This document shows positions 18,928 through 41,961 of a stretch of DNA of 47,969 bases, in pieces; position 1 is the first letter of the stretch, and each line of letters starts with the position of its first letter. The notes beneath the pieces are model-generated. The model worked only from the letters and a program-made list of their open reading frames with translations, was not told the origin of the DNA and did no database searches. The position numbers and the translations under genes were made by a program. Source of the DNA: an uncultured Erysipelotrichaceae bacterium (lineage in GTDB: Bacteria > Bacillota_I > Bacilli_A > RFN20 > CAG-826); contig CADCPN010000023.1 in NCBI GenBank assembly GCA_902803375.1, positions 1 to 47,969 of the forward strand. The letters are read 5' to 3'.

Positions 18928-19644
18928 ATGAGTTGGGACTTAATCGGATTGATCTTTACCATCATCCTCGTTCTCTTCACCGTCGTGGGCGTCATCAAAG
19001 GCTTTTTCTGGTGCTTAGGCAAATTCATCAAGCTATTTGCCTCGATCATCATCTCGACTTTCCTTTGCCATCCTATCGCCACCAGGCTTAATGCCACAGG
19101 GCTAGGCGCTACCCTCAAAGGCGGCATCGCGGATAATCTTGTTTCCAAAAGCGATGTCTTCACTCTTTCCTGCACTGCCGATAACGTCGATACGGCCCAG
19201 GCAAAGCTAAATATTCCTAATTTCTTGCGCGAGGCGATGAACAAGTACATCCTTGGCGGCAACTACGAAGGCTATGATAACGTCGCGCAGTATTTCGCCA
19301 ACGCCTTCTCTCTCATCATCCTCACCGCCATCACTTTCATCGTCTTGGTAGTCATCATCATGCTTATCGGGCTATTGCTAAGAAGGCTTGATAAGGTATT
19401 CGCCAACGTTACCGCCCTTAATGTCACTAACCGCATCCTTGGCGGCGTCGTTAACTTCGCCTTAGGCCTATGCATCGTCTGGGGAATCTGCGTCGTGCTC
19501 TCTGCCATCATCTCTATGGGCAACGGCGCTTCCTCTTGGCTAGAGACGACGATGCGGCTTAATAGCGAGCAGATAAGCTTCAGCAAGCTCTTCTATAACT
19601 ACAATCCGATCTCAAGCATCGTCTTCTCCATCTTCGGCATCTAA
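18928..19644 (+). CDS. CvpA-like membrane protein
   Basis: 238 residues with a CvpA-family pattern: an N-terminal helix (LIGLIFTIILVLFTVVGVIKGFFWCLGKFIKLFASIIISTF), a loop of about 70 residues holding few helices, then two long hydrophobic helices (LIILTAITFIVLVVIIMLIGLLLRRL, GGVVNFALGLCIVWGICVVLSAI). CvpA proteins are membrane proteins first linked to colicin V export; their molecular role is still unclear. GGGGGAG lies ahead of the ATG. It is the first gene of a nine-gene operon and, with the surface protein at 26185, one of its two membrane components. Confidence 0.75.
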   Translation: MSWDLIGLIFTIILVLFTVVGVIKGFFWCLGKFIKLFASIIISTFLCHPIATRLNATGLGATLKGGIADNLVSKSDVFTLSCTADNVDTAQAKLNIPNFLREAMNKYILGGNYEGYDNVAQYFANAFSLIILTAITFIVLVVIIMLIGLLLRRLDKVFANVTALNVTNRILGGVVNFALGLCIVWGICVVLSAIISMGNGASSWLETTMRLNSEQISFSKLFYNYNPISSIVFSIFGI

Positions 19645-19656: not shown

Positions 19657-21606
19657 ATGCCGAGTAAGGTCTCACTCTGTTTCGACTTTGGCGCCGATAC
19701 GCTGAAGATCGCCGTGGCATATGGATTGCCCGGGCAATACCATAGACTCGAGAAGGTCGCCACTCCATCGACCTCCTCTGGTTTTCCTTCTATCGCCCTT
19801 TATGACAAAGATAAAAAGACCTGGCTATTCTCCGATATCGCCTATTCCTCTTCCGATTACTCCTATATCGTTAAGATCAAGCAATTGCTTTCCCTTGTCC
19901 TAAAAGGAAAAGGCAGCAAGAACTACGACTATTACGCGAATAAGAACATCTTCCCTTATTATTGTTTCCTAGAACCGCAAGGCGCGGTCATTGAAGACTA
20001 TGATGCCCTGCTAGAAAAGAAGAACTCCAGCTTCATCGTCCCCAATATCACCCCAAGGCAAGTCTGCGGAAGATTCTTCGCCTATATCAACACGGTCGTG
20101 TTCTCATGCCTCAAGAAGAAGTCGATCTACCTCGAAAACGTGGATTATTCTTTTTGCTTCGCCACGGGCACCAACTCTTTTTTGAAGGAAGAGATCATCG
20201 CGCTAGCCAAAGAGAACTTCACCTTCGGGGAATATTCAGGCAAAGAGATCTCCGCGGAGAAGGCCATCGCCAAATACATGGCCGAATCTGGGGATGTGGA
20301 GGATAACGAATCCTTCCTCCTTTTCCAGATGGGACATGATTCCGTCTCCGTCACCAAAGTCAAATCCTTAAGCGAGGGCATCGCCGTAGACGGCGTCGAA
20401 GGGCATGAAGCCCCGCTTCATGTAGGCGGAGGCAACATCGATAGGATTCTCTATGAGCATCTTTCTTCTAGCGTGGCCAAGCATGAGACCATCGGGATGG
20501 ACGATAAAAATGCCGCCGCCTCCCATGAGGCAATGACTAGCGGGAAGCAATTCGCCTTCTTAAAAGACATCAAGCTCTGCAAAGCCATCCTCTCTGACCC
20601 GGATTTCCATGATTCCTATGTCCCCATCTCGATGGATAATAGCCTCGTGATGTCGACTTCCGTCAGCAAATCCGAGTTCGCCGAATGGCTCGGATATAAA
20701 GACATCAATAACATCAAAGCTCCAAGCTTTGCTAACCTACTCATCCGCAACTACATCGGCAAGGAGCTTGCTAAGCCTCTTAATGACAATGTCTCCTATA
20801 TCCTTCTTCTAGGCGGCAGCAGCTGCACTTTGGATTTCCCTTTGGCCGTCTCTAGATACCTAGAGAAGGAATTTCCCAATGTGAAGCTAAAAACCCGCAT
20901 TGGAGAACTCTATAAAGAGCTAGGGGATGAATGGCCTTTATATGCGGTTGCCGGCACTGGCGCCTTATTCGCCTTCAATTCCTGGAAGGTCGATACGGTC
21001 TTCTCGCTTTCTTATGGCACCTGGGTCACGCCGAGAGAGAGGGGGGATGCAAGAGGTGGCTCTGATATCTATTACCAGGAGCTATTCCCGATGAACTCCC
21101 CTGTGGAGAATGGCAGCTACATCGAAGAACGCGGCTGCTATCTCCATATGTCTCGCCCCTTCACCCTTCAGATACGCAGGGCGGTCTATGAGATGGTGCT
21201 TAGCTCCTCTTTTGATATGGACTACTTCAAAAGGTATGACGGCTGCCACAAAGATAACCACGATAGGCCGCGCATCCTCTCCAATATCGATACTAGCAAA
21301 GAGTTCCACCTAGACCATTACGCAGGCAAGATGGGCTTTAAAGAAGTGGTCGGCAGCTATGCCGCCATCTTCGATATCCAAGACACGAAGCATCACCTGG
21401 AATTCTCCAGGATGTATGACATCGGCTTCCGTTATTACCTCTTCATCTCCCCCGATGGCAGGGTGGAGATCGAATATCACCTGAATGACGTCAAAGCCCA
21501 TGGGGGCACTTCCTCACTCTCTTATGTGGAGACGAGCGATGGCAGGCGCATCCCTGTGGAAAGGCTTCGCATCGTCGCGAATGTCTCCTATAACGCGAGG
21601 GCATAA
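19657..21606 (+). CDS. Hsp70-fold ATPase-like protein with altered phosphate-2 loop
   Basis: 649 residues. The N-terminal 420 show the actin/Hsp70 plan: phosphate-1 strand CFDFGADTLKIAV (8-20), a phosphate-2 region LLFQMGHDSVSV (about 220-231), HVGGGNIDRILYEHL (about 252-266) and the adenosine motif LLLGGSSCTLDFPLAVSRYLE (about 382-402). In DnaK the phosphate-2 loop reads LVFDLGGGTFDVS; here Asp and the Gly triplet are replaced, so nucleotide turnover may be weak or lost. The last 230 residues are not a DnaK substrate-binding domain that I recognise. It could act as a nucleotide-gated scaffold or chaperone for the operon partners (inference). Twelve bases after the CvpA-like gene; weak ribosome binding site. 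Confidence 0.7.
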   Translation: MPSKVSLCFDFGADTLKIAVAYGLPGQYHRLEKVATPSTSSGFPSIALYDKDKKTWLFSDIAYSSSDYSYIVKIKQLLSLVLKGKGSKNYDYYANKNIFPYYCFLEPQGAVIEDYDALLEKKNSSFIVPNITPRQVCGRFFAYINTVVFSCLKKKSIYLENVDYSFCFATGTNSFLKEEIIALAKENFTFGEYSGKEISAEKAIAKYMAESGDVEDNESFLLFQMGHDSVSVTKVKSLSEGIAVDGVEGHEAPLHVGGGNIDRILYEHLSSSVAKHETIGMDDKNAAASHEAMTSGKQFAFLKDIKLCKAILSDPDFHDSYVPISMDNSLVMSTSVSKSEFAEWLGYKDINNIKAPSFANLLIRNYIGKELAKPLNDNVSYILLLGGSSCTLDFPLAVSRYLEKEFPNVKLKTRIGELYKELGDEWPLYAVAGTGALFAFNSWKVDTVFSLSYGTWVTPRERGDARGGSDIYYQELFPMNSPVENGSYIEERGCYLHMSRPFTLQIRRAVYEMVLSSSFDMDYFKRYDGCHKDNHDRPRILSNIDTSKEFHLDHYAGKMGFKEVVGSYAAIFDIQDTKHHLEFSRMYDIGFRYYLFISPDGRVEIEYHLNDVKAHGGTSSLSYVETSDGRRIPVERLRIVANVSYNARA

Positions 21607-21611
21607 AGACA

Positions 21612-24461
21612 ATGGCAAAAGACTCCAAAGTGAAAATCGTCGTCGATTCCTCGGCGACCGACATCGAAAACCAGAAAGCCAACCTTTCTTTTGAAAGGCG
21701 CAATTTTACCCGCACCATCGCAAGGAGTAACCACGCCGCCAACGTCCTTGATGTCCATGACTCCTTCGATGAGCTGAAGATCGATCCTTCTTTCCTCGCC
21801 CAGTCTTCTTCCACCGGCATCTATGGTATCCCCTATGACTCCGAGGTCCATCGCTTTGGCCAAGACGTCATCCTCTCCCACCAGAAAGTGGCGGCGCAGC
21901 GTTTCTTGCGCGAGCTCCGTGGCTTCGGACTTTTGGCTGATGTGGTTGGTTCAGGCAAGACATTTGAGGCGGGCCTAGTCATCTCTGAACTTTCCTTCCG
22001 CAATATGTGCCGCAGCTTATTGCTTGTTGTCCCTGACCAGGTCTTCGATACCTGGGTGGTCACGATGGAGCGCCGCTTCGGCATGGGCGATGGCGTATTG
22101 CTTCGCGCCGATGAGAATTTCCTTCTTCCTGACGTCTATAAGCAATACCTCGTCAAAGATGGCGAATTCCGTTATCTTTCCCGCCCCGTCATCGTCAAGA
22201 TGGATGACTTCGTCAAATGGGATAAGGCTATCTCAAGCCTGCTATTCGATGTCATCGTCGTCGATGAGGCCCATAACCTTTGCCTGAAGGATTCCGGGAG
22301 CGTCAACGGCCTGAAGCTTCTTTCCAGCTTCATGCAGGTGAAGAACAAGGCGGGCTATCCCTATTGCCTCCTCCTTTCCGCGACCCCCCATAACGGCAAC
22401 CTCGAGGACATGTACCCGTTATGGTATTTCATCCGCTATAAAGGCGGCGTGCCGAGCGACTTCTCTAGCGATGAATCCTTTGCCAGCCAGGAATACGTCA
22501 AAGAGAAGGCCTACTACATCGATAAGGTCTGCTATGGGGCCAAAACGGTATCCGAATTCATCGCCGCGGTGCGCCTAGTCAAAATTAAGTCTGAATATCA
22601 TGAGGCCCTTCTCTCCTATTGCCCTGACTTCGAGCAGAAGTCAATGGCGGCAAAGCTATCCAAGGCCGCGGACTTCGAGAGTAAGATGCTTAACGAGCAG
22701 CAGCGGCAATCTTTGCGCAAAGAGATTGCCGCCGCCTACCATAACGAGGTACTCCGCCCCATCATGATCCGTCAGGAGAACCATCTCCATAAGAGCAAGA
22801 AGATCGCCAATATCCTTTTCTATCCGACCTTGGAATTGCCTAGTGTCCTAGAGCTTAGCTTCCGGGGGGAGCATCTCACGGTTAACCTCACTGACTTTGG
22901 GCTAAAGAAGAAGTGCATCCATTGCGATGATGGCATTGTCGACTTCGCTACCTTCGCCTCCAATCGGGAAAAAGACACCCACCTCATCACCGATTTGCTT
23001 TTTGAGATCATTTCTAAGTTGGAGAAGGAATATGGCTCCGCCAATGCGTTCTTGGTCGCTGATCCTATCCGTTACTACAAAGAGCAGCTCTATACCTGCG
23101 CCTTCTCCGCTAATAGGTTCGGCAATGACATCACCAATGATCTCCGCCTCACCAACAAGAGGCCTATCTTCGACCTGAAGCTAGAGGAGACCAAGGCCAT
23201 TCTTAAGCAGAATAAGGGAGAGCGCATCCTTATCTTCTTCGACTATGACCTTGCGCCAAGGCAGTCATTGAAGAATAAGCTTCTCGAAGCCTTGCAAGAA
23301 GACGAAGAGCTTTCCTCTAGGCTTCTTATCGGCTCCGACAAAAACAAGACGCAGACCATCAACGCCTTTGCGGAAAAACCTGATGCTGTGTTGCTAGTCC
23401 TTGACCCTAAGTTCACCGAAGGGGCTAACCTTCAAGATTCCGCGATCATCATCAACTTCGAGATCCCCTGCGATCCCCTTTCGATGGATCAACGCATCGG
23501 ACGCATCTTCCGCCTCGGGCAAAAAGAGGACGTGAGGATCTATTCCCTCGCCGACATGACTAGCCTTGAAGGCTATGTTTTGCTCTACTTCACCGCGATC
23601 GGCATCATGGATTCCAACTCTGGCGATGCCACGATCATCGCCGGCAACAACTCCGACAAGATGCTCGTCGCGAAGTGCCCTAGTTGCGGCAGGGTCAACA
23701 TGGTCCCGAAAGACCTATATGACGAAGATAGCGAAGACGTCTATTGCTCTGCCACCCCTTCCTGCAGAAGAAATGGCGGCAAAGGCACCAAGATGGTGGA
23801 GATCTCCGTCTATAACTTCGAATGCGAGAGTTGCGGCAGAGTCCTTCAGCGCGACTTCAATGATGATTCTGGCGCTTATCGATGCCTTGCCATCAATAAT
23901 GACGGCAAGAAGGGCAAGATGTGCAATTCCGGCAAAGACGGGGACCGCGTTTTGTTCTGCAATTCTAGCTGCGCCCTAAGCCATTGTGACATCCTTGAAG
24001 AGCTGCATTGCCCACTAGCTTTCTCCTATAAAGAATATGGCATTGATTCCGACATCCAGCTTTTCGATATCTGCCGCCGCTGCAAGAACCGGAGCGAATG
24101 CCTAACTAGGGCAAGAAGGGATGGCAGCCCCTGCGCTTTCTATCACGAAGGCTTCTCTTCCGAGCCAGTTTTAGACTATAAGATCCACCAGGTGCAGAAG
24201 TGCTCCCATTGCCCCCACGCCACCTGCTCTCCTAGGCCCCACATCATCAACTTCGACGACAAATGGGAGGCGACTTGCCCCAATTGCCATGGCAAGCTAA
24301 AGAAGGTCGCCTCCGGCACCTTCAAGACCTACATCAAGAATTCCTGGAGGTTCTCCACCCATAATGCCGAGGGCGATTATTTCGTCAAAGATCTGCTGGA
24401 AGAGACCAGAAGAGCCAGCGTCATCAAAGAGATCTTGTCTCTAGATGAGGAAAAGAAATAG
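21612..24461 (+). CDS. SNF2/RapA-type helicase with C-terminal zinc clusters
   Basis: 949 residues. The SF2 core is complete: motif I DVVGSGKT (about 110-117), motif II DEAH (about 217-220), motif III LLLSATPHNG, and in the second lobe motif VI DQRIGRIFRLGQ (about 625-636), as in SNF2/RapA-type DNA translocases. From about 688 onward there are repeated Cys pairs (CPSCG, CESCG, CRRC, CSHC, CPNC) forming several likely zinc ribbons, unusual for this family. SNF2 proteins translocate on duplex DNA and remodel or strip bound proteins. The start lies five bases after the preceding stop, implying coupled translation. The function in this operon is unknown. Confidence 0.85.
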   Translation: MAKDSKVKIVVDSSATDIENQKANLSFERRNFTRTIARSNHAANVLDVHDSFDELKIDPSFLAQSSSTGIYGIPYDSEVHRFGQDVILSHQKVAAQRFLRELRGFGLLADVVGSGKTFEAGLVISELSFRNMCRSLLLVVPDQVFDTWVVTMERRFGMGDGVLLRADENFLLPDVYKQYLVKDGEFRYLSRPVIVKMDDFVKWDKAISSLLFDVIVVDEAHNLCLKDSGSVNGLKLLSSFMQVKNKAGYPYCLLLSATPHNGNLEDMYPLWYFIRYKGGVPSDFSSDESFASQEYVKEKAYYIDKVCYGAKTVSEFIAAVRLVKIKSEYHEALLSYCPDFEQKSMAAKLSKAADFESKMLNEQQRQSLRKEIAAAYHNEVLRPIMIRQENHLHKSKKIANILFYPTLELPSVLELSFRGEHLTVNLTDFGLKKKCIHCDDGIVDFATFASNREKDTHLITDLLFEIISKLEKEYGSANAFLVADPIRYYKEQLYTCAFSANRFGNDITNDLRLTNKRPIFDLKLEETKAILKQNKGERILIFFDYDLAPRQSLKNKLLEALQEDEELSSRLLIGSDKNKTQTINAFAEKPDAVLLVLDPKFTEGANLQDSAIIINFEIPCDPLSMDQRIGRIFRLGQKEDVRIYSLADMTSLEGYVLLYFTAIGIMDSNSGDATIIAGNNSDKMLVAKCPSCGRVNMVPKDLYDEDSEDVYCSATPSCRRNGGKGTKMVEISVYNFECESCGRVLQRDFNDDSGAYRCLAINNDGKKGKMCNSGKDGDRVLFCNSSCALSHCDILEELHCPLAFSYKEYGIDSDIQLFDICRRCKNRSECLTRARRDGSPCAFYHEGFSSEPVLDYKIHQVQKCSHCPHATCSPRPHIINFDDKWEATCPNCHGKLKKVASGTFKTYIKNSWRFSTHNAEGDYFVKDLLEETRRASVIKEILSLDEEKK

Positions 24462-24474
24462 GGGGAGCATAGAT

Positions 24475-26163
24475 ATGGATGCCAAGATCATCAACATCGG
24501 CCGCTCCTATAAGGAAGAATTCGACGCGGTCGTGCAGCTAGTTTCCAATAACGCCTTAGACGGCTCTATTTCCTATAACGCCTCCAATAAGGCCATACTC
24601 GATTCCAATGCGGGCATTTGCTTCCGCTACGACGAGTCCTCTCTCGTCGCAGGATATGAAAACGACGAACCTAGCTTCACTAGTCACGGCGCTTCCTGGT
24701 TTTTGGGACTACGGGGAGAGAAAGTAGAGGAAGACGAGTCCATGATCTGGGAACGCTTCCTCAACAAGGTCGCCTCCCTCTATCACCGCAAATACTCCTT
24801 CATCGAGTATGACTTATCCAAAAAGGCCGATATGCCTCTTACCGATGCGCTTCGCGACAAGATGGACCGCATCAATAAGGGCCTGCTTTCCCCCGAAATC
24901 GCCAATAAGCTAGTTAGAGAAGAGAACCCAGCCGCCTCCCTCGATGAGCTGCTCGATTATATCTACGCCATCAACGTCAAAGTCAAAGTCGAGGATGAGA
25001 AGCCTATCGTTGGCACCCTCTATTTTAGGCGGCTCTCCCATAATCGCCTGCAGATAATGAATTACCATGCCGCTAAGCCGATCTCCGACTTCCTTAACGC
25101 GGAGAACCCCAAAAACGAGGACGTGGTGCTAGGCTCTGTGGATAATGATGAGAAAGAGATGATCTTCTCTTCGCTTAAGTCTTTCTTAACCAAAGCCGAG
25201 GATAAGCAGAAGAGCGTCTATAACTTCAATGACTATATCCTTTATGAAGAGAGCAAATCCTCTTCTTCTGGCTGGGGCTACATCTATAACAAATGCATCG
25301 TAAACGGCCCGATCTCAGATACCATCACCCTTCATGTCAGGGAAGTGACGGTATTGGGCATCATGTTCATCAAGTGGCGTAACCGCGTCGTGGATTATTC
25401 TTATCTCGGCCGTAGAGTGCTTCGTTATCGGATCCTTTGCTTTGGCAACGAGCCTACCCTTTCGCTGCGCTGCCTCTGCTGTGACTGCAAAGATGACCTC
25501 ATACTCGAGGATAAGGCCTTGGCTTATGGAGAAGGTGGGGAAGTGACCATGCTTCCTTTAGATCTCTCCCGCGCCGATCTAGGCCTAACGCCAACGGAAA
25601 GAAAGAATACCTTACTCGCCAAAGACCACCTTATCCGCAACGCCATCAGCCCCTATTGCAAGGATTGCGATAGGCTAAATTGCCGCAAGGAGCTTCTCGA
25701 TGTCGGCAAAGAAGGGCATCCGCTACTCGTCTGCGAGAATTGCCCTTACCCCTATGTTGTCTATCATAGCTATGGCAAGAAAGCCGCCTTTGCCAAAAAC
25801 CTTGTCCTATCTGAAAATAGCCTAGACCTCGTGGAAGGAAGGCAAGGCACCTGCAGCTGCTGCGCCCGGCGCTTTGAGGATAAGGAACTGCATAACGGCC
25901 GCTGCGAATTCTGCCTTTCCGCCGAACGCGTTGCCACTGGCAATCCTGATTCAGCGGAAGCAATAGAAGCCAGGAAGCTCTATCGCCGCTACCATGACCT
26001 ACTGCCATTACATAGGCGAAGCAATGTTTCCCATAAGCGCAAGTATGCCTTCGAGAACGAGACCACGATCCTCTTCTACGTGGGCAAGCATTCCTATGTC
26101 TTCGATAAGAAATCCATCGTTGATGATGGCTTCATCCCTTCGCCAAAGAAAGTGAAGAACTAA
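24475..26163 (+). CDS. unknown protein with multiple C-terminal cysteine clusters
   Basis: I do not recognise this family. From ATG 24475 it has 562 residues. That start is chosen because GGGGGAG (24461-24467) lies seven bases before it, while the longer frame from 24445 would overlap the helicase gene and lacks a site. The first 340 residues look globular mixed alpha/beta. The rest carries Cys pairs (LRCLCCDC, YCKDCDRLNC, VCENC, CSCC, CEFC) typical of zinc binding, like the helicase encoded just upstream. Shared zinc clusters and adjacency suggest the two proteins act together (inference). Confidence 0.6.
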   Translation: MDAKIINIGRSYKEEFDAVVQLVSNNALDGSISYNASNKAILDSNAGICFRYDESSLVAGYENDEPSFTSHGASWFLGLRGEKVEEDESMIWERFLNKVASLYHRKYSFIEYDLSKKADMPLTDALRDKMDRINKGLLSPEIANKLVREENPAASLDELLDYIYAINVKVKVEDEKPIVGTLYFRRLSHNRLQIMNYHAAKPISDFLNAENPKNEDVVLGSVDNDEKEMIFSSLKSFLTKAEDKQKSVYNFNDYILYEESKSSSSGWGYIYNKCIVNGPISDTITLHVREVTVLGIMFIKWRNRVVDYSYLGRRVLRYRILCFGNEPTLSLRCLCCDCKDDLILEDKALAYGEGGEVTMLPLDLSRADLGLTPTERKNTLLAKDHLIRNAISPYCKDCDRLNCRKELLDVGKEGHPLLVCENCPYPYVVYHSYGKKAAFAKNLVLSENSLDLVEGRQGTCSCCARRFEDKELHNGRCEFCLSAERVATGNPDSAEAIEARKLYRRYHDLLPLHRRSNVSHKRKYAFENETTILFYVGKHSYVFDKKSIVDDGFIPSPKKVKN

Positions 26164-26184
26164 AGAAAGGAGGAAAGATAAGCT

Positions 26185-29100
26185 ATGAATAACGTAAAGC
26201 GCGATCCCAGCAGGAAAGGCCGCTATGCCTTCTTGCATCTAACCGACTCCAAGGCGCCGATCTATATCTGCGTATTGCTTTCTTTGCTTTGCAACGTCAC
26301 CTTGGCCACCAAGTTTTTCCTTGGCAACTACGAAGCCTCCTATGGCGTCTATTCGGTGGTGAGTGCCCTGATCGACCTCATCTTCTTAATCCTATTCCAT
26401 TTCTCCAACATGAGGTTCCGCTACGCCTTCATCGAGGCGGTGGCTTACGCATTGATTAGCCTCCTCGCCGCTAGCGTTCCCATCGCCCTATATAACCCCT
26501 TCGCCAAAACCAATATCTTCACCACCAGCATGTCGATATTGACTATCCTCACCCACTTCGCCGCCGCAATGCTTGTCGTCATTATCGCTAGGCTTTCTGG
26601 CAAATATGAGGACAAAGGCGCCCAAAATGCCTCTTATGCCTGCGCCTCTTTGTCTTTGGTATCGCTAGGCGTATTGCTCTATTTCACTTTCTCCGCCGGC
26701 TATTTTGGCCAGGGTAATGGCAGAAACCTCATCCTTAACCGCCTTGATGATGGCAGCTATGAAGTCGTAGGCATCATCAAAGGCCCAGGAGCAAGCGTAG
26801 AGGTCAAAGACTATGGCGGCAAGAAGATCTCCGCGATCGACGCTTCTGTCTTTGCTGCCGATGACGTCTCTTCCATCCGCTTTGATAAGCATCTAGAGAT
26901 CAAAAACCCCGAGAAGCTAGATAACGCCAATCCCCTTCTTGTCGTCGAAGGAGAGTATGAGGTCATCTCCGCCTATCGGGAGGACTTCTTTAAGGAGGCC
27001 GCCATCTCCCCTTCGCCAAAAGGCGCTTTGTCTTTGGCCAATAACGTCGGCTACCTCGACGCGGAGAGATCTTTTGTCCACTTCGCCTATGATGAGGAGG
27101 CTTTCTCTACTCTATATAAGAGCAATAACTTGCTCCTTGATCTAGTCGGCGAGAAAGGCGAGGCAATGCAGCAGATGCAGGGGTATGTGGATGATTTCGA
27201 GAAGAACCCCTATGGCAAAGATTTCCTGCTAAGCGATTCTTCCATCGTCGATAGCTACCTTGCCAACAAGAAGAAGGTCCTCTATTCGGATTCTGACCTC
27301 ATTTCTTATCTAGATGGGAAGAAGCAACTATCCAAAAATGAGAGCACCCTCTCCTTTGATTTGGCCCTAAAAGACGTCTATCTCGTTTCTTTCGAAGAGA
27401 GCAACGACTCCCTTTATCCTCTTGAAAGAGGCCTCGCCAAGAATGAGGCCGCCCTTTCAAAAGGCAGATACGTGCTTGAGATTAGCCATGGTAGCGGCTT
27501 CCCATATGAAGACTATGCCCGTTTCGATATGGGTGCCCTTCTATCCGAATTCGATGGCTATGCCTCTAGAGAAGGCTTCGACTTCGCCTTTGTGAGCAAT
27601 GGCAAAAACATTACATCGCTGACCCCCTCTTCCTTCGTGGATAACAAAATCTCCTTAAAACCGACCTGGTCCATCCGCTCTCCTTCTTTTGACCTATATG
27701 ACAAAGAGAAAAACTTTCGCTACACCTATGGCGAACAAGGCCATTTCGAAGCGGTCATCGGCAAAGAGAACGTCTATGACGACGTCTTTGACTACGAGCT
27801 GTCCTGGTACCTCAATGACGAGGAAAGCCATTCCTTAAGCGATGCAATTAACTATGATTCCCGCGTCTTGCTGCCTAGCGATTCCAAAGTCTCCGTCTTT
27901 TTGCGCATCAGCTCTTCCAAGAGTTCGCTAACCGCGGTTATCCCTGTTTGCAAAACACTTTATGTCGCCAAAAAGACCTTAGGCGTAGAAGCCTTTTTGG
28001 GATCTAACGTCTATACCTCCTATGACATCAAAATGAACGTAAGCCTTTTTGGAGGCGTTGGAGACGATGATTTGTCTTGCTTCTCCTTGACGGTCACTAA
28101 CCTAGACAAATCTTCTTCCTCTACTTTTGATAACCCTATGGAGGCGAGCGTCAAAAACGCGGGCACCTATAGTCTCGCCATCACCCTTTCTAGAGAGCTT
28201 TCTAAGCTCTATGTGGTGGATGCCCGCGCCTCCTCTTCCCGTTACGTCATTAGCCGTTATGAGCTGAAAGATGCCTGGGAAGGCGCGGAAAGCTCCTTTA
28301 CCTATAACGGGCAGAAGCACTCGCCTGCCGCCAATATCGTCCCTCTTAAAGGAGATAGCCTTTCCGATGTCTTTGATCCATCTAATGGCTACCGCTATAC
28401 CCAAAACGGAGCCTCCGTTCCTTCTCCGATCCACGGAGGGGAGTACTGCGCTAGCCTCGTTTTCAAAAACGATAACTACTTTGCCTCCCCCTTCTTTTTC
28501 TCCATCCTCAAGAAAAAGGTGTTCGTGAACTATGAGCCCACGGATTCCTTCGTCTATAACGGAGAGAAGCAGTCTCCTAAAGTCGCCTCCATCGATGGCT
28601 TTCTTCCTGGAGAAGAGGTAAATATTACTTATGCCGGCACTAGCTACATCGATGTCGGCTCCTACAGAATCGTCGCTTCTTTGGCTTCTTCCGATTACGA
28701 GCTAGATAAAGATTCCGGCGTTATGGATTTCTCCATCACCCCGCTTCATCTAGACATCAAAGTCAACGATGCCTCCTCTACCTATGGAGAGATAGCCTCG
28801 CCCTTATCCTTTGCCTATATTAGCAGCGCCAAGCTTCTCGATAGAGACGGCGACTGCATCAAGCTTTATGTTGATGGCGCCTCCTTCCCTCTAGCCGAGG
28901 CGGGGGAATATGAGATCTTGGCTAGATGCCTCTCCTCTAACTATGACATTTCAGACTATCACGCTGGCGCCTATACCATCCGCAAAAGAGAGGTGGAAGC
29001 AAAGGAAGATGACAATGTCTATTTCACCTATGATGGCACCGATCAGTCCTCTTCCTTAAGCGAAAAATTCTATTTCATCGACCAGCTTGGTCAGAGACAT

Positions 29101-30015
29101 CCTTTATCCGTTGACGTCAAAAAAGAATTCAAAGATGCCGGCAATTACGCCTACACCCTTTCCTTAAAAGACTCTGACGCGAAGAACTATCTTCTCACTG
29201 GCAATCTTTCCGGCTACGTCAATATGCGAAAGAAGACGCTACCCGTCTCTTCTTCCAGCAAGAGTTTCACCTATAACGGATTAGACCAAAGTTCAGCGTT
29301 AGATGAGTATTATTTCGTCTTCATCAACGGGACGAAAATCTACTTGGAAGCCACGCCTATCGAGTCTTTTGTTAACGCAGGCGACTATCAGATCAAATTG
29401 GCGTTGCCGCTAGAGTTCTCCGCTAACTACTCCCCCTCTATCTCTTTCGCTAGAGTTTCGATATCTAAGGCCGGTATCGCCATCACTTGGGAGGACGTAA
29501 CCCTTACCTATAATGGCCTTGACCAGTCTTCCAGTATAAATGGCAAAGCGAGCTTCTCCGATGTCTTTGGCAATAAACAGCTTGTGAATGTCACCGTTGA
29601 CGCTGACGTCGTCGACGCTTCTTCCTATGTCTTCTCCGCATTGCTAAGCGAAGAGCAAGCCCAAAACTATGTCGTTTCCTCCCATAAGACCCACGCTTAT
29701 GTCATTAACCCCCTGAATGTTGACGTATTCTGGAATGAAAAGGAGTTCTACTATACCGGCGAAGTCTTGAAGATCAGCTCCCCTTTTTATGTCGATGCCT
29801 TTGGCAAACGCCAATATCTCTCCGTCACCTTCGATAAGCCCTTTAAGGAGGTGGGGACCTATGTGGCGAAGGCTAGCTTTGCTTCTGCAAAAGAGGCGCA
29901 GAACTATCGTCTGAATAACCCCACCCACGAATATCAGATACTGGAGGAAAGGCAGGAGGAGATTGCCGCCCCCAAGGCAATAAAGCCATCTTCCAAGCAG
30001 GAGGAAGAGCAATGA
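26185..30015 (+). CDS. giant membrane-anchored surface protein with MBG-like repeats
   Basis: 1276 residues. A basic N-terminus is followed by about five membrane helices (residues 25-165), which would place the remaining 1100 residues outside the cell. The outer part starts with a short segment resembling bacterial LRR_5 (GKKISAIDASVFAADDVSSI), then a large middle region. From about 690 it has some seven tandem domains marked by F(T/V)YNG, TYDGTDQSS or TYNGLDQSS and ending in DAGNY or NAGDY, the signature of MBG (mostly beta-grasp) domains of surface proteins. No LPXTG motif. AAAGGAGG supports the start. It physically links a cytosolic ATPase operon to the cell surface, an unusual combination. 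Confidence 0.7.
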   Translation: MNNVKRDPSRKGRYAFLHLTDSKAPIYICVLLSLLCNVTLATKFFLGNYEASYGVYSVVSALIDLIFLILFHFSNMRFRYAFIEAVAYALISLLAASVPIALYNPFAKTNIFTTSMSILTILTHFAAAMLVVIIARLSGKYEDKGAQNASYACASLSLVSLGVLLYFTFSAGYFGQGNGRNLILNRLDDGSYEVVGIIKGPGASVEVKDYGGKKISAIDASVFAADDVSSIRFDKHLEIKNPEKLDNANPLLVVEGEYEVISAYREDFFKEAAISPSPKGALSLANNVGYLDAERSFVHFAYDEEAFSTLYKSNNLLLDLVGEKGEAMQQMQGYVDDFEKNPYGKDFLLSDSSIVDSYLANKKKVLYSDSDLISYLDGKKQLSKNESTLSFDLALKDVYLVSFEESNDSLYPLERGLAKNEAALSKGRYVLEISHGSGFPYEDYARFDMGALLSEFDGYASREGFDFAFVSNGKNITSLTPSSFVDNKISLKPTWSIRSPSFDLYDKEKNFRYTYGEQGHFEAVIGKENVYDDVFDYELSWYLNDEESHSLSDAINYDSRVLLPSDSKVSVFLRISSSKSSLTAVIPVCKTLYVAKKTLGVEAFLGSNVYTSYDIKMNVSLFGGVGDDDLSCFSLTVTNLDKSSSSTFDNPMEASVKNAGTYSLAITLSRELSKLYVVDARASSSRYVISRYELKDAWEGAESSFTYNGQKHSPAANIVPLKGDSLSDVFDPSNGYRYTQNGASVPSPIHGGEYCASLVFKNDNYFASPFFFSILKKKVFVNYEPTDSFVYNGEKQSPKVASIDGFLPGEEVNITYAGTSYIDVGSYRIVASLASSDYELDKDSGVMDFSITPLHLDIKVNDASSTYGEIASPLSFAYISSAKLLDRDGDCIKLYVDGASFPLAEAGEYEILARCLSSNYDISDYHAGAYTIRKREVEAKEDDNVYFTYDGTDQSSSLSEKFYFIDQLGQRHPLSVDVKKEFKDAGNYAYTLSLKDSDAKNYLLTGNLSGYVNMRKKTLPVSSSSKSFTYNGLDQSSALDEYYFVFINGTKIYLEATPIESFVNAGDYQIKLALPLEFSANYSPSISFARVSISKAGIAITWEDVTLTYNGLDQSSSINGKASFSDVFGNKQLVNVTVDADVVDASSYVFSALLSEEQAQNYVVSSHKTHAYVINPLNVDVFWNEKEFYYTGEVLKISSPFYVDAFGKRQYLSVTFDKPFKEVGTYVAKASFASAKEAQNYRLNNPTHEYQILEERQEEIAAPKAIKPSSKQEEEQ

Positions 30016-31166
30016 AGAACCTACTCACCTGCAGCCATTGCCATAAGAAATACGAGGAGCCCCTTATCCTCTATGATGGCAGGCGGGCCTGCCCGAAATG
30101 CTTGGCTGTCACTAGTAACGGCAATATCGATAAGAAGGCTTTTTGCCTAAGCAAGGAGAACCATGAGCTCTACGTCAGGGCCAAGGTGCTCTATTTGCAG
30201 ACTATCCTTGCCCTAGCAAAGGCCTCCTCGGCCAACGTCTTGGAAGAAAAAGATAAGAAAAGCCTTTCCGCCGCTTTTTCCTTTGCTAGGGAATCCTATG
30301 AAGAAGGCAACCCCGCTAGCGCCATCTTGCTTAGCTATCTCTACCGTTATGGCTTACTTTGCTTCCTAGGGATCAAATATAGCGATAAAGACCGCCTTGC
30401 CCTAGCGGGAAGCTACCTCGCCCAGGTATTGGATAACCCCGTAGTCGAAGATAGGGAAGGGCTACTAGACAAAGAGCCTTATCCAAAGCTAAGGGAAGTC
30501 GCCGCCTATGAGCTAAGCGCTTTGCTACACTCCTGCAAGAAGGATGGCATCCTCTTGGAGAAGGATGCCTATAACGCCTTCGTTAGGTCGCTTCATAGCT
30601 TTGACCCCGTCTTATATGGCGATTTCGCCCCGGTTGGCGGAAGCATGAGCAGCGACTTCGCGCTATTAGAATCCATCTTCCGGGAAGATAGCAAAGGCAA
30701 CCCGATCGGAACTCTCTCTGGCATCGATCAGGCGGGGCATAGGGCGCCTTTATTGATGGTGCTACGCCTAGAGAGTAAGAACCTAGAGAAGGTGCTGGAA
30801 GAGCAGTCCATCCCCTTCTTATCGCGAATCGCGAGAAAAGGCGACTCCAGGGTCCATTGCTATCTTTTCGCAGAGCTTGGCGGCTATCGCTTTGAGCTAC
30901 ATCGCTTCCAGGAGGACCTCTCTTCCTATACCAGCGAGAAATACGTCTACCTCTGCGTGGCTAACCTTTATGGCAAGCACGAGGCGAGCTACCGCGGCGT
31001 GAATAAGATCTCCGATTATGAAGAGACTTTATCCAGTATCGTCGAGATCGCCGATAGGAAAGAGAGGAGCTATATCTTCAGCGATGACGATCTCTCTTTC
31101 TTTAAGAAGAAAGGCAGAAAATTTAGTGATAAAATAGCAGCATTGAAAGACTCGCTGCAGGGCTAA
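30012..31166 (+). CDS. zinc-ribbon protein with helical-repeat-like body
   Basis: 384 residues; ATGA overlap with the surface-protein gene. The N-terminus holds a four-Cys zinc ribbon (CSHCHKKYEEPLILYDGRRACPKC, C7 to C34 region). The remainder is largely helical, with Sel1/TPR-like spacing in AFSFARESYEEGNPASAILLSYLYRYG (about 80-120), then a mixed region I cannot place. A zinc ribbon followed by helical repeats also occurs in the protein encoded at 40561-41961. Role unknown; an adaptor within the operon complex is possible. Confidence 0.6.
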   Translation: MKNLLTCSHCHKKYEEPLILYDGRRACPKCLAVTSNGNIDKKAFCLSKENHELYVRAKVLYLQTILALAKASSANVLEEKDKKSLSAAFSFARESYEEGNPASAILLSYLYRYGLLCFLGIKYSDKDRLALAGSYLAQVLDNPVVEDREGLLDKEPYPKLREVAAYELSALLHSCKKDGILLEKDAYNAFVRSLHSFDPVLYGDFAPVGGSMSSDFALLESIFREDSKGNPIGTLSGIDQAGHRAPLLMVLRLESKNLEKVLEEQSIPFLSRIARKGDSRVHCYLFAELGGYRFELHRFQEDLSSYTSEKYVYLCVANLYGKHEASYRGVNKISDYEETLSSIVEIADRKERSYIFSDDDLSFFKKKGRKFSDKIAALKDSLQG

Positions 31167-31179
31167 GAGGAGAACATAA

Positions 31180-32622
31180 ATGGATAAATTGGAATTTGTT
31201 ACGTCGGTGCTCGACACCAACGGATTTAAGTACAACGAGAAGATCAAGAAAGCCAAAGACTATGGCTTCGATTCCCGCATGCAGGAAGGGCTGTTCGAGC
31301 AGATCGTCGACGCCCTCTATGAGAATTGCCTCTATCTCCTTAACGTTGGCCAGAGTAAGAGCCTCCTGACCCTGATTGCTTCCTTAAGCGAGGAGGCCGT
31401 CGGCCTCACCGAGAAGGGCCTCCCCGAGAAGAAACAATTGAAGTCTAGAGACAAGATCAATGGTCTCCTTTCCGAAAGCAGCAGGTATAAATATTCCCCC
31501 AAAGAAGAAGAGAAGACGGCTAAGCGCAAAGTCCAAAATGACCTCCGCGCGTTGCAGCTATTCATTAACCGCGTCCTATCCACCCCGGAAGACCATACCC
31601 CTGCCGCAATCGCCGCGGCCAAGGAGATCAAGGAGGCCGTCCTAACTCTTTCCGCCAAAGCGGAGCAAATCCATGACCATTCCTCCAAGAAAGCCTGCGA
31701 ATATGCTGCCAAGATCGAAGCACTGCTCCAGGAAGCCTGCGACGACTACTCTTCTGGCATCATCTCCACCTCTAGCATCCCGACTCTAGATAAAGTCGGC
31801 AGATTGCTCGATGAATGGCTATCCCAGGTCAAAGCCGATTATGGCTTCACCGGCAAAGTCAAATTCGGCACCACCCCCGATGGGGAGCTCTCCATCGCCA
31901 AACTCGAAAGCGATTCGGCCTATCTCACCTCACTCAATGAGCTCCGCGCCAACATCGAGATCCAGATGAAGAAGCTGGAGTCTCTTGCCGACTCTGGCAA
32001 CATCGAGGCCCATGAGAAGTCCCTTAACCTCCAAAAAGAGAGGCTAAAGACGTTGGTAATCGCCGCCAAAGCTCATCCGACCACCTCGGCGATGGATGCC
32101 ATCCATAAGCAGCAGGAGCAGGTCAAGAAGGAAGAGGTCCTGCTTCAAAAAGCCAAAGACCGCCTCTTCAAGATCCAGGCTGGGCCTAGATACCGCACCC
32201 TCCTTAACATCGTCGACCTCATCAATGACATCGCCGCCTATGCCGATAACAAGGTGGCCCTAAGCTATATCCAGAAGTACTTCGAGGTCAAAGAGGCCTA
32301 TGCCTTCGTGAACCAGACCACTGCCGACCCCAATAAGATAGAGACTCTCCTCACCAAGTGGAGAGAGGTCAAGACCATCATCGACACCGCTGAGCGGCAA
32401 GCCGACAATAACCTCGACCTTATGGATTCCCTCCTCTCCGCCGCCTTCACCGAAGAAGAAATCGCCGTTACGGAAGAAAAGGGGAAGATCAGCCAGGATA
32501 ACCTCGATGAACTTGCCGCCCTCTCCGCCGAGCTTGGCCTAGATGAGAAGGATGGCGAAGAAAAAGAAGAGCCAGCGGAAGAAGAAAAAAACGAAGAAAC
32601 CCCGATGGACGTCATCGCCTAA
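31180..32622 (+). CDS. helical coiled-coil protein with acidic tail (possible ESCRT-III-like)
   Basis: 480 residues, nearly all predicted helix and charged, with heptad-like stretches (about 240-330: LNELRANIEIQMKKLESLAD, QQEQVKKEEVLLQKAKDRL). The tail from about 450 is very acidic (EEKEEPAEEEKNEE) and ends PMDVIA. No membrane segment or enzyme motif. Helical body plus acidic tail, placed two genes before a Vps4-like AAA ATPase, is the layout of ESCRT-III-type subunits, but I see no diagnostic motif, so this is a structural guess. An alternative is a generic AAA adaptor. GAGGAG precedes the ATG. Confidence 0.55.
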   Translation: MDKLEFVTSVLDTNGFKYNEKIKKAKDYGFDSRMQEGLFEQIVDALYENCLYLLNVGQSKSLLTLIASLSEEAVGLTEKGLPEKKQLKSRDKINGLLSESSRYKYSPKEEEKTAKRKVQNDLRALQLFINRVLSTPEDHTPAAIAAAKEIKEAVLTLSAKAEQIHDHSSKKACEYAAKIEALLQEACDDYSSGIISTSSIPTLDKVGRLLDEWLSQVKADYGFTGKVKFGTTPDGELSIAKLESDSAYLTSLNELRANIEIQMKKLESLADSGNIEAHEKSLNLQKERLKTLVIAAKAHPTTSAMDAIHKQQEQVKKEEVLLQKAKDRLFKIQAGPRYRTLLNIVDLINDIAAYADNKVALSYIQKYFEVKEAYAFVNQTTADPNKIETLLTKWREVKTIIDTAERQADNNLDLMDSLLSAAFTEEEIAVTEEKGKISQDNLDELAALSAELGLDEKDGEEKEEPAEEEKNEETPMDVIA

Positions 32623-32634
32623 GGAGATAGATAT

Positions 32635-33372
32635 ATGAAAGAGAAGCAGAAAAAAGCAGAAGTCGACCCATTCGCCGCGGCCATCGCCGCTGACCAAAAG
32701 CGGGTCAACCGCCAATTCCAGAAGAAGAAGTTCGACGAAAGGCGCAATCTCCTCCATTCCCGCAAGGATGAGATTCTCCTTAAGGGCAAAGCGGCCTTAG
32801 AACGCGCCAAAGCCCGCGATCCCAAGACCTATTACAAAGACGTCAACGTCGTGATGTTCTCTCAGCTTTTCCAGCTCTGCACCGAGATGGAGGAGGCCTT
32901 GGAGATGATCGACTCCGTCAACATCGCCATGGATTACCTCACCGAAGTCATGGGTTATATCGATGACATCATGCAGTCCTGGGACCTCTCCCTCGATGAG
33001 CAGACCGCCCATTCCTATGGCCTATTCTCCAGGTGGAGGACCAGAAGGAAGATTCGCAAGGCTAGACGCAACCAGAAGGGCCGCATGAAGGTCCTCACCA
33101 TGCGCATCAAGGCGATGTTTGAGTCCGTCGGCATGATGACTAGCGGCCTCTCTTCCGCCGTGAGTGACCTCACCTACACGGTCAATAAGCCAGTGAAGAT
33201 GAAGAAAGAGAAAGTCCGCAAGAATGAGGCGACCGGCCCTAGCCCCGCCGTGGTATCCTTCGAAAGCGCGTTAGCTCTAGAAGAAGGGGCCATAGCCCCC
33301 GCCGCGAAGAAAGAAGATGGCGGAGCTAACTTGGGCGCTGCCCCCTCTAGTTCCGACATCGATAACATCTAA
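32635..33372 (+). CDS. basic-to-acidic helical protein (possible ESCRT-III-like)
   Basis: 245 residues. A strongly basic N-terminal helix (RQFQKKKFDERRNLLHSRK) leads into a helical hairpin (about 45-125: QLFQLCTEMEEALEMIDSV, AMDYLTEVMGYIDDIMQSW), a second basic stretch (RWRTRRKIRKARRNQKGR), another helix, and a disordered Ala/Glu-rich tail ending SSSDIDNI. This basic-to-acidic all-helical plan and its position directly before the AAA ATPase recall CHMP/Snf7 proteins, whose C-terminal tails bind Vps4. Homology is not shown by any clear motif; a PspA-like or unrelated coiled coil is possible. AGGAG lies before the ATG. Confidence 0.55.
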   Translation: MKEKQKKAEVDPFAAAIAADQKRVNRQFQKKKFDERRNLLHSRKDEILLKGKAALERAKARDPKTYYKDVNVVMFSQLFQLCTEMEEALEMIDSVNIAMDYLTEVMGYIDDIMQSWDLSLDEQTAHSYGLFSRWRTRRKIRKARRNQKGRMKVLTMRIKAMFESVGMMTSGLSSAVSDLTYTVNKPVKMKKEKVRKNEATGPSPAVVSFESALALEEGAIAPAAKKEDGGANLGAAPSSSDIDNI

Positions 33373-33383
33373 AGGAGCAACCC

Positions 33384-34640
33384 GTGGCAAAGCAGGAAGA
33401 GAAAAAAATATTGGATATCCGCCTGCCCGAAGTCCTTAGCCTCGATGCGGAGGCCGGAAGCGTCGCGACCAAAATCAAGGCCATGCTCGATAAGAAAAAG
33501 GCCCTGGAAGCTTCTGGCAAAACCTTATCGGAAGAGGACATCGGCGAGCTCCGCAATGGCTATACCCTTATCTATTCGATTGCCAACTCCATCATCAATA
33601 AGCTTCTTTCCGCCAGCTTCACCCTAAATGAAGACGAGACGAGGATGCTCAATACCTATAAGGCCAGAGCTGAGAACTTCTTGGCCAAATCCCGCCTCTA
33701 TGGCAGCGCCATGCGAGGCATCCCCTCCCGTACCTTCGATGATATCGCAGGCTTAGATGAGGTTAAGGAAGTCGTCGATTCCTTCGTCTATATGGCAGAG
33801 CACCCCGAACTGCTTTCCCATTACAACATGGAAGGCGGCTTGGGCTTGCTTATGTATGGCGCCCCAGGCACAGGCAAAACCATGTTTGCCGAAGCCGCGG
33901 CCAACCGCATGAAGCTTCCTTTGTTCGTGGTGACCCCCGCCGATATCTATAATTCCTACGTCGGCCAATCCGAGAAGGCCGTCAGGGACATCTTCGATGA
34001 GATGGATAACTGCCGTAGCGGCGCCGTCTTGTTCGTCGATGAATGCGAATCGATCTTCTCTAAGCGCACCGGCAACGATGAGACCTGGAAGTCTAGCGTC
34101 ACCACCGAGCTTCTCCAGAGGATGAATGGCTTTGGCAGAAATGGCTCTAGGCGCGTGCTGCTCGCCTCCACCAATAGGCCCGATAAGATCGATCCCGCCT
34201 ATCTCCGCTACAAGAGATTCACCAACCTCGTCCATGTGCCGCCCCCTGACGTGAATGCCCTTCGCGCCATCATCGAGCATAAGCTGCGCATCGGCAAGCC
34301 CGATGAGATTGAGCTCCACAACATCAGCGTCGAGCAGATCGTAGAGATGACGCAGGCCCATCCTGGCTATTATTACACCGGCGCCGACATTTCCGGCATC
34401 ATCGAGGAGGCCTGCCGCCAGGCCATCGATAAGATGATCAAGACCCGCAATGAGTCTGGGAAGTTTTTGCCGCTAGAGAGGGAATACTTCGAGAGGGCCT
34501 TTGCCAAGAAGTATCCTAGCGTCTCTAGGGCGCTTGCCGACCAATATGAGAATTTCTCCAAGCATATCGATTCCAGCGAAGCGATAGGCGAAGAGAAGAA
34601 GGCTAGCCTTGCGGAACTCTTTCACGGCGGAAATAACTAA
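33384..34640 (+). CDS. single-domain AAA ATPase (Vps4/katanin-like layout)
   Basis: 418 residues from a GTG start at 33384 (AAGGAG seven bases ahead). Residues 1-115 are helical; the last helix TYKARAENFLAKSRL resembles the third helix of MIT domains (consensus like YLDRAEKLK). The AAA core is complete: Walker A GAPGTGKT (159-166), pore loop SYVGQSEK (191-198), Walker B LFVDE (216-220), sensor-1 STNRP (262-266), and the arginine pair LRYKRF (274-279). One AAA domain behind a MIT-like bundle is the Vps4/spastin/katanin plan; FtsH- or p97-like assignments fit less well. It would pull on protein substrates as a hexamer. Last gene of the operon. Confidence 0.8.
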   Translation: MAKQEEKKILDIRLPEVLSLDAEAGSVATKIKAMLDKKKALEASGKTLSEEDIGELRNGYTLIYSIANSIINKLLSASFTLNEDETRMLNTYKARAENFLAKSRLYGSAMRGIPSRTFDDIAGLDEVKEVVDSFVYMAEHPELLSHYNMEGGLGLLMYGAPGTGKTMFAEAAANRMKLPLFVVTPADIYNSYVGQSEKAVRDIFDEMDNCRSGAVLFVDECESIFSKRTGNDETWKSSVTTELLQRMNGFGRNGSRRVLLASTNRPDKIDPAYLRYKRFTNLVHVPPPDVNALRAIIEHKLRIGKPDEIELHNISVEQIVEMTQAHPGYYYTGADISGIIEEACRQAIDKMIKTRNESGKFLPLEREYFERAFAKKYPSVSRALADQYENFSKHIDSSEAIGEEKKASLAELFHGGNN

Positions 34641-34645: not shown

Positions 34646-34680
34646 AAGCCTTGTGGATATTTTCATAAGGCTTTTATTTT
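34646..34680 (+). terminator. intrinsic terminator of the nine-gene operon
   Basis: AAGCCTTGTG (34646-34655) pairs with CATAAGGCTT (34664-34673) with one G-U pair, followed by TTATTTT. It begins six bases after the AAA ATPase stop. Confidence 0.8.
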
Positions 34681-40560: not shown

Positions 40561-41961
40561 ATGAAAAAGACTCTTAACGTAGACCCATACAAAGAATACA
40601 GGCTCCACTCCGTGGACAATGAAATCGAAATCGTAAAAAGCCAGCGCTGCGGCTGCTATTTTTGCCATTCTATCTTCTCTGCTAGAAGCGTGAAGGACTG
40701 GCTTAGCGATGAGCGCGGCGTATCCGCGATCTGCCCCGAATGCGGCATGGACACCGTTTTAGGCGACGCCTCTGGCATCCAAATCGATAAGCAGCTGCTT
40801 AAGAACATGTCCAAGCAATATTTCGGCGACGAAGTCAGCTTTGAGGCCGCCAGAGCCTATTGCATCCGCTACCTCGATTCCAAGATCAACAAGACAAAGC
40901 ATAACGAATACCTCTATGAGGAGTACCTCAAAAAGCTCGCCCTCTCTGGCGATGCCCCGGCCACCCTCGCCCTTTCTAAGCTCTACCAGGGCGAAGGCTC
41001 CTTCGTGAAGGAAGATGACCCCAAAGCCCTCAGCTACCTCGAGTCCCCTTTGCTATCCACCAACACCGTTGCCTTAACCGATATGGCCGCCCTCTATTTC
41101 CATGGCGACCTAGGCTTAGAGCAGGCGGAAGCCTATAAGAAGGGCTTCGAATGCCTAACCAAGGCTAGCGCCCTAGGCTCTTTGAAAGCCGTGTATCTGC
41201 TTAGTGATCTCTATCTCCAGGGCATTTATGTGGAGAAAGACCTATACTTTGCCTATAAGCTCCTCGACGAGAACTACAAAGACGTCTATGACACCTTCGC
41301 CTATGAGAGAAAAGGCTGCAATGATTTCCTCCAATTCAACTACCGTTTGGGCAAAATCTACGAGTATGGCGTCGGCACCGACAAGGATCAGATGAAGTCC
41401 ATGCGTTGCTTCCTCCTTTCTCTGCTTGCCCTTTCCTATCCCGCCACCGTCGATCCCATCGACCCGGAGGCCGGCAAAATCATCAAGGAAGACATCGAGA
41501 AAGAGGTCAAAGCCCTCGCTGATGCAATGCATCTCTCCAACGCTTCCCCAATCTACGACCAGGATACCTATTTCGACTCCTTCGCCGATGCTGGCGAGGA
41601 TTATTCTCCCAAAACCCTTAAAGTCGTCTCCTGGAACAAAGAAGAAGGCAAGCTCTCCTTCGACGTCGACTATAAGCTCACCCCGATCATCGTCGATATC
41701 GCGGGCCTATACTGCGGCTTTGTCTCCGGTTCCATCCGCTGGGATTTCGACCATATCGCCGAGGTGAAAACTTCTACGGGTGACCTTACCTTCGAAAAGG
41801 TGAATAATCCGAGCGACGAATTCTGGGAATTCACCCACGTTACCCCAGAAGGCGAGGAAGTGGTCGTCATGGCCATCCAGTTCTATAGCGACCCCGTTAA
41901 GTTCAAGGAACTGCCCATCGCCCAAAGGAAAGAGAAAAAATCCAAAAAAGAGGGAAAATAA
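40561..41961 (+). CDS. zinc-ribbon plus Sel1-like repeat protein
   Basis: 466 residues. The N-terminus has a four-Cys element of a recognisable but unnamed type (CGCYFCHSIFSA ... ICPECGMDTVLGDASG, about 31-75), often annotated only as cytoplasmic protein. Residues about 105-310 contain Sel1/TPR-like helical repeats (GDAPATLALSKLYQGEGSFV, LTDMAALYFHGDLGLEQAEA, LKAVYLLSDLYLQGIYVEKD, NYRLGKIYEYGVGTDKDQMK). The last 120 residues look like a beta-rich domain and a lysine tail. The next gene starts at the base after its stop, so it is coupled to the ABC exporter; the link is unexplained. Cytosolic scaffold is a reasonable guess. Confidence 0.75.
   Translation: MKKTLNVDPYKEYRLHSVDNEIEIVKSQRCGCYFCHSIFSARSVKDWLSDERGVSAICPECGMDTVLGDASGIQIDKQLLKNMSKQYFGDEVSFEAARAYCIRYLDSKINKTKHNEYLYEEYLKKLALSGDAPATLALSKLYQGEGSFVKEDDPKALSYLESPLLSTNTVALTDMAALYFHGDLGLEQAEAYKKGFECLTKASALGSLKAVYLLSDLYLQGIYVEKDLYFAYKLLDENYKDVYDTFAYERKGCNDFLQFNYRLGKIYEYGVGTDKDQMKSMRCFLLSLLALSYPATVDPIDPEAGKIIKEDIEKEVKALADAMHLSNASPIYDQDTYFDSFADAGEDYSPKTLKVVSWNKEEGKLSFDVDYKLTPIIVDIAGLYCGFVSGSIRWDFDHIAEVKTSTGDLTFEKVNNPSDEFWEFTHVTPEGEEVVVMAIQFYSDPVKFKELPIAQRKEKKSKKEGK

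Follow-up and report, generated by a model that had tools for sequence, protein, structure and literature searches.

Does a bacterial genome that encodes a single-domain AAA ATPase directly behind two helical proteins hold a filament-and-motor module of the ESCRT-III/Vps4 kind? The question is raised by three adjacent genes, here called HelA, HelB and AAA, in 47,969 nucleotides of DNA from an uncultured Erysipelotrichaceae bacterium (assembly GCA_902803375.1, contig CADCPN010000023.1, positions 1 to 47,969; hereafter the window), which an initial annotation had described as a bacterial ESCRT-III/Vps4-like trio. Our answer, offered tentatively, is that the AAA is a remodeller acting on an assembly of HelB, Vps4-like in its logic, and that the trio is the remodelling end of a larger gene cluster. 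By the sequence criteria that define ESCRT-III and Vps4, HelA, HelB and the AAA fall short. The three open reading frames lie where they had been annotated, with the following features, for which AlphaFold2 confidence is given as the predicted local distance difference test (pLDDT):

31180..32622, + strand: HelA, 480 amino acids, helical, with an acidic C-terminal tail; sequence ortholog in genome G044
32635..33372, + strand: HelB, 245 amino acids, with a basic N-terminal helix, three long helices and a disordered tail
33244..33291, + strand: HelB residues 204-219, a short helix within the disordered tail, with low-confidence flanks; AlphaFold2, block pLDDT ~70-78
33346..33369, + strand: C-terminal ending SSSDIDNI of HelB, with a putative partner-binding role
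33384..34640, + strand: AAA ATPase, 418 amino acids, GTG start, single classical AAA domain and N-terminal three-helix bundle
33384..33698, + strand: AAA residues 1-105, the helical N-domain; AlphaFold2 model
33858..33881, + strand: Walker A, GAPGTGKT; six orthologs have it unchanged or with conservative substitutions
34029..34043, + strand: Walker B, LFVDE; conserved in six orthologs

The trio forms the 3' end of a co-directional nine-gene cluster (18928-34640), with gaps of 12 nucleotides between HelA and HelB and 11 nucleotides between HelB and AAA, and with AGGAG-type ribosome-binding sites. Orthologs in identical order are present in G044, a genome of the same genus, with identities of ~29% for HelA, ~29% for HelB and 56–59% for the AAA. 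Differences per codon position are highest at position 3 in each gene (0.56/0.46/0.68 for HelA, 0.51/0.45/0.65 for HelB, and 0.37/0.29/0.62 for the AAA), and this third-position excess, together with the orthologs in the same order, identifies the three as genes rather than chance frames.

The AAA motifs noted in the initial annotation are confirmed, with a PF00004 match at 3.6e-31 in Pfam and the features of a classical AAA domain present, including Walker A, Walker B and the second region of homology; the TN sensor and the two arginines of the latter are conserved in six orthologs, which are 48–56% identical to the window AAA. The predicted helical N-terminal bundle is likewise borne out, the AlphaFold2 model placing helices at residues 2-43, 50-75, and 83-105 with pLDDT mostly >85 (whole-model mean 79.9). 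A weak signal bears on the resemblance of this domain to MIT, a profile of helices 2-3 matching Vps4 MIT at E 0.019, a sub-threshold value that none of 300 block shuffles reached. The Vps4_C helix (PF09336) is detected in five of six orthologs (best 6.5e-5), with the window protein itself at 0.14, below the cutoff; a C-terminal ending similar to Vps4_C is also known in p97 D2. The fold of the AAA does not discriminate between families, because its core superposes about equally well on p97 (Z 24.3), Metallosphaera sedula Vps4 (23.7), katanin (23.5), FIGL-1 and spastin (both 23.4), and A. hospitalis Vps4 (23.3). Family scores alone cannot place the protein either, since the NCBIfam matches, led by CDC48 (1.3e-42) and followed by PAN and CdvC (5.2e-37), all lie far under their cutoffs. 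The IetAS defence system was considered and set aside, the AAA matching IetA models at the domain level (1.8e-31), with no IetS among the ten cluster and flanking proteins.

Phylogeny of the AAA domain is more informative. The AAAs of this system form one clade (support 100/100) that falls outside FtsH, p97, and PAN and also outside Vps4, katanin, and spastin, with a union of the system AAAs with Vps4, katanin, and spastin rejected in two trees (p-AU from the approximately unbiased test, 0.0057 and 0.0126). A position among FtsH-like or p97-like AAAs, which the initial annotation had named as telling against its proposal, is not what the trees return, with the reservation that a union with p97 D2 is not rejected. 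The clade sister to the window AAA consists of AAAs that follow either ESC2 or the Snf7 protein of genome G488, both helical proteins of related bacteria (support 96/89, and 91/88 with one more row). Of the tree references, human VPS4B and spastin and one PAN are identical over their full length to PDB chains, and the Vps4 sequences from yeast and archaea come from PDB alignments; katanin, ATAD1, and p97, as well as the CHMP (human) and PspA (bacterial) sequences of the profiles used here, may differ from the deposited entries in single letters.

Other AAAs of the window's genus sit in operons of small helical proteins, and AAAs beside Snf7-matching helical proteins are found in five of its genomes and in one of another family. 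The five genomes share the order 315 amino acid protein (with a C-terminal zinc ribbon), 320 amino acid helical protein, ESC1 (190–192 amino acids), AAA1, ESC2 (197–201 amino acids), AAA2, and AAA3, the operon being split over two contigs in one of them (loci L050 in G145, L051 in G169, L052 in G201, L053/L054 in G199, and L055 in G174). In L051, ESC2 spans 5479-6072 and AAA2 spans 6074-7240. Across these operons and two simpler loci, Pfam Snf7 matches nine of 14 helical proteins at E up to 1, the best, at 1e-7, spanning nearly the whole model with 32.2 bits where the cutoff is 27.3; two Snf7 proteins, one in the genus loci and one in G488, score at or above Pfam's cutoff. A combined bacterial profile matches human CHMPs at E 4e-9 over 145 columns, with a score of 66 that block shuffles, never above 21, do not approach. 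Compared with the MIT domains of Vps4 from archaea and human, the N-domains of AAA1 score E 5e-5, whilst Pfam MIT is detected under its cutoff in three of 18 N-domains (L056 0.0014, L050 0.004, and L051 0.054), none belonging to system AAAs, and AAA3 of L050 carries Vps4_C just above the cutoff. Searching 296 genomes of the class for Snf7 yielded one further case, G488, at the cutoff, in a search where the S. acidocaldarius control scores below it. In G488 (L081 8535-12808, G488:C7) the Snf7 gene directly precedes the AAA gene, and the AAA groups with AAA2 (99/99). The genes flanking the genus loci look bacterial by eye, e.g. glycine hydroxymethyltransferase and lysyl-tRNA synthetase in L056, which argues against contamination. 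Judged by its sequences, this operon with ESC1, ESC2, and up to three AAAs is a bacterial ESCRT-III/Vps4-type locus in the genus of the window.

Further loci of the relatives merit mention. L056 (7987-10514) with L057, and L049 (8916-12628), hold simpler sets in which one or two AAAs accompany basic helical proteins; some of the latter have C-terminal helices that look like MIM1 by eye (VDTTLAEIESKLQK). In L081, two proteins of 329 and 478 amino acids downstream of the AAA have N-termini that appear MIT-like by eye.

HelB occupies the gene slot of the relatives' Snf7 protein, directly upstream of a sister-clade AAA, and no ESC2 homolog is present in the window genome. The features first reported for the helical proteins, a basic N-terminal helix and the ending SSSDIDNI in HelB and an acidic tail in HelA, are all found, with net charges of +9 over residues 1-60 of HelB and -17 over the last 60 residues of HelA. 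The HelB model (AlphaFold2, six sequences, mean pLDDT 67.8) consists of helices 12-61, 70-127, and 130-184, of 50, 58, and 55 residues. Its ending resembles that of a relatives' Snf7 protein (SSSDFFSELDI), both being hydrophobic-acidic and following a disordered tail, and endings of this kind recur in several members of the HelB family (TGIDNI in G248, NNIDDIL in G418, and DSFGNILD in G761), with those of two others (ADDLWK and TGVGGL) fitting the pattern poorly. The likeness in slot, tail, and sister AAA does not make HelB an ESCRT-III protein. The same three likenesses do make a Vps4-like working mode plausible, in which the AAA would form a hexamer, as is usual in its family, its N-domain would recognise the flexible tail of HelB, and its pore would thread HelB and so extract subunits from an assembly, perhaps on a membrane. 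HelA may be a second helical subunit or a regulator.

Several results weigh against this reading. Pfam MIT (PF04212) is not listed for the N-domain of the window AAA at E up to 1, so that the MIT resemblance does not extend to a family match, and a Pfam MIT search of the window genome found none. HelB matches the ESCRT-III profile at E 0.041, collinear over ~80 columns, a value reached by six of 300 shuffles, and HelA against ESCRT-III profiles gives nothing; Pfam Snf7 (PF03357) is not among the families listed at E up to 10 for HelA, HelB, or their orthologs and counterparts, and neither helical family is assigned to a Pfam family, HelA having none above cutoff. The sister relation of the AAA has moderate support, because the tests do not reject a grouping of the AAA with p97 D2 (p 0.16) or with archaeal Vps4 taken by itself (p 0.10). 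The best fold matches of HelB are BAR proteins, none of them significant, and the rest of the cluster, with its SNF2 and nuclease-helicase proteins, points to nucleic acid and not to membranes. As a claim of membership the ESCRT-III/Vps4 trio is therefore not upheld, with no Snf7, PspA, or MIT match in Pfam and the Vps4/meiotic union rejected; as a working analogy it is retained, with the sister AAAs following Snf7 genes and HelB equivalent in slot and tail.

The remainder of the cluster comprises:

18928..19644, + strand: CvpA-like membrane protein, cluster gene 1; Pfam Colicin_V 4e-12, G044 ortholog
19657..21606, + strand: 649 amino acid protein with actin/Hsp70-type ATPase motifs by eye; orthologs in G044, G246, G418, and G234
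21612..24461, + strand: SNF2-type helicase with a cysteine-rich C-terminal region; Helicase_C 6.6e-9, SNF2-rel_dom 8.1e-7
24445..26163, + strand: 572 amino acid protein with conserved cysteine pairs, the cluster marker
26185..30015, + strand: 1276 amino acid protein carrying MBG repeats, with hydrophobic segments at its N-terminus; MBG_2 8.7e-9
30012..31166, + strand: 384 amino acid protein, with two CxxC motifs at the N-terminus that resemble a zinc ribbon
34646..34673, + strand: terminator-like hairpin with a 12-pair stem and T-rich tail, closing the cluster; consensus scan only

The SNF2-type helicase is 34–53% identical to its orthologs, and its best PADLOC matches are the BrxH and DrmD helicases. 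The 649 amino acid protein, in which phosphate and adenosine motifs of the actin/Hsp70 type are recognised by eye, is a conserved part of the cluster; Pfam and PDB searches with it gave no match.

Orthologous clusters or cluster ends were found in five other genomes from three families of the class, the compared genomes being largely fragmented assemblies. G044 has all nine genes in identical order. G246 and G418, from two other families, encode the actin/Hsp70-motif, SNF2, 572 amino acid, MBG-type, and 384 amino acid proteins, followed by a protein in the position of HelA, a 641–662 amino acid protein, an SF1 helicase that also carries a nuclease-type domain, HelB, and the AAA. HelA has positional counterparts in G246, G418, and G248, those in the first two showing no BLAST similarity to it and 17% identity in a forced alignment. 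The cluster end of helicase, HelB, and AAA is found in G248 and G761, and the first cluster genes are found in G234, on a short contig. In all six genomes that have the cluster or its end, HelB sits immediately upstream of the AAA gene, with a 76 amino acid open reading frame intervening in G248. The cluster is rare and sporadic, an orthologous AAA being present in four of 392 genomes sampled across the phylum.

The SF1 helicase of the relatives combines AAA_11/AAA_12 with a REase_MTES_1575-type domain and lies inside or beside the cluster; the cluster-linked examples are L065 872-5506, L069 9488-13753, and L016 16810-19800, one of which also carries DUF4011. In the window genome, the closest SF1 helicase (G000:C5:32433-35258) lies on another contig and is 36% identical, making it a candidate member of the system only. 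Beyond these genomes, the 572 amino acid marker had no match in the plasmid collection, the plasmid and phage collections gave only distant matches to the AAA, many annotated as CDC48 or FtsH, and a scan of viral contigs returned one distant AAA only. Distant AAA proteins from a scan of genome contigs were discounted, those added to the tree having fallen with FtsH, and a HelB match in G123 was discarded as chance, lying inside an unrelated frame of 2289 amino acids.

This setting suggests an explanation unrelated to ESCRT, in which the cluster is a defence-like one concerned with nucleic-acid conflict, the AAA is its general unfoldase or assembly factor, and HelA and HelB are helical adaptors or substrates that serve the SNF2 and helicase-nuclease proteins. 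The affinity of the SNF2-type helicase to BrxH and DrmD, the nuclease-type domain of the relatives' SF1 helicase, the zinc-rich proteins, and the sporadic distribution are all in keeping with it; however, a known defence partner for the AAA was not found, among the AAAs compared in the trees, those of ESCRT-III loci are placed closest to this one, and the cluster also encodes membrane proteins (the CvpA-like and MBG proteins). We regard this explanation as somewhat unlikely. The nearness of the AAA to those of the Snf7 loci could also be read literally, with a Snf7-MIT-AAA module as the ancestor of the trio, which would be a true, though strongly diverged, part of an ESCRT-III/Vps4 radiation in bacteria. 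The Snf7 neighbours of the sister clade, the weak signals of HelB against ESCRT-III and of the N-domain against MIT, and the shared slot and tail design would all be expected of such a descendant, but the defining sequence features are missing and ESCRT-III chains are not among the listed fold matches, and we consider this unlikely. A related proposal, that the class holds a native radiation of ESCRT-III with dedicated AAAs for disassembly, represented in some genomes by Snf7 proteins and MIT-type AAAs, and of which the HelB-AAA pair of the window is a diverged branch lodged in a helicase-rich conflict cluster, appears to us rather doubtful.

Quite improbable, in our view, is that HelB is a BAR-like three-helix scaffold of membrane curvature that the AAA removes, its likeness to ESCRT being functional convergence. 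The three long helices and the basic N-terminal helix suit such a scaffold, as do the top Foldseek matches of HelB, the eisosome proteins Lsp1/Pil1, F-BAR, I-BAR, and SNX1 (VIA Z ~8–9); yet the E-values of these matches are 0.15 and worse, Z values below ~13 are common for helical bundles, and the model itself has a mean pLDDT below 70 and draws on six sequences. No ESCRT-III or PspA chain is among the listed PDB fold matches of HelB, an absence that is not evidence against the fold, and a search among viral models found nothing significant. A Vps4-like remodelling of HelB by the AAA remains the reading we prefer, with the caution expressed above.

Set beside archaeal CdvB-CdvC and eukaryotic ESCRT-III-Vps4, the window trio shares a three-helix N-domain followed by one classical AAA domain, traces of a Vps4_C-type helix, and an adjacent gene for a small helical protein with a flexible tail. 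In contrast to those systems, the window AAA lies outside the Vps4/meiotic clade, MIT and Snf7 matches are missing, the N-domain joins the AAA core almost directly, and the surrounding cluster is rich in helicases. The Snf7-AAA loci of the relatives (L050-L053, L055, and L081 of G488) are closer, with a sister-clade AAA, a helical protein upstream, and a hydrophobic-acidic tail ending, although these loci have Snf7 matches and one AAA with a recognisable MIT, whereas HelA and HelB have no Snf7 match.

A clear Vps4 homologue has been described as lacking in bacteria (PMC7615534), and ESCRT components as found in archaea and not in bacteria (PMC10936438). The initial annotation had likewise held that the ESCRT-III relatives of bacteria lack a Vps4 of their own, which is too strong, as some bacterial members of the PspA or Snf7 clades are reported to adjoin AAA+ ATPases, and Vps4-like AAAs to have been transferred without Snf7 (PMC11237479). 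The window locus shares with those cases the idea of an ESCRT-III-like protein with a dedicated AAA; unlike the window AAA, which has one AAA domain, the PspA-associated AAA has two (PMC11237479), and no PspA was found in the window genome. Long helices and a basic N-terminus are shared with PspA/Vipp1, but the HelA and HelB families have no Pfam PspA_IM30 (PF04012) match at E up to 10, and the hhalign values of the helical proteins against PspA (E 0.12–0.17) were equalled by 15 of 60 shuffles. BdpA and other BAR domain proteins (PMC8687657) likewise have three long helices, with fold matches that are not significant. Our literature search, which covered open-licence papers, found no description of the window cluster or of Snf7 operons with multiple AAAs. 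If the AAAs of this lineage do disassemble helical polymers in bacteria, small operons offer a way to test whether a filament with a dedicated motor exists beyond the archaeal-eukaryotic line, with the relatives' loci as clean test cases and the window trio showing how far such a module may drift.

Elsewhere in the window, three tandem paralogous secreted proteins (12465-16144), with mutual identities of 26–61%, lie behind a sugar-transport operon and appear to reflect local duplication. At 16152-17741 a PfkB/ribokinase domain and a membrane segment like DUF624 are, by eye, fused in a single open reading frame, and a Sel1-repeat protein (40561-41961) has an N-terminal zinc-ribbon-like segment that resembles, again by eye, that of the 384 amino acid cluster protein.

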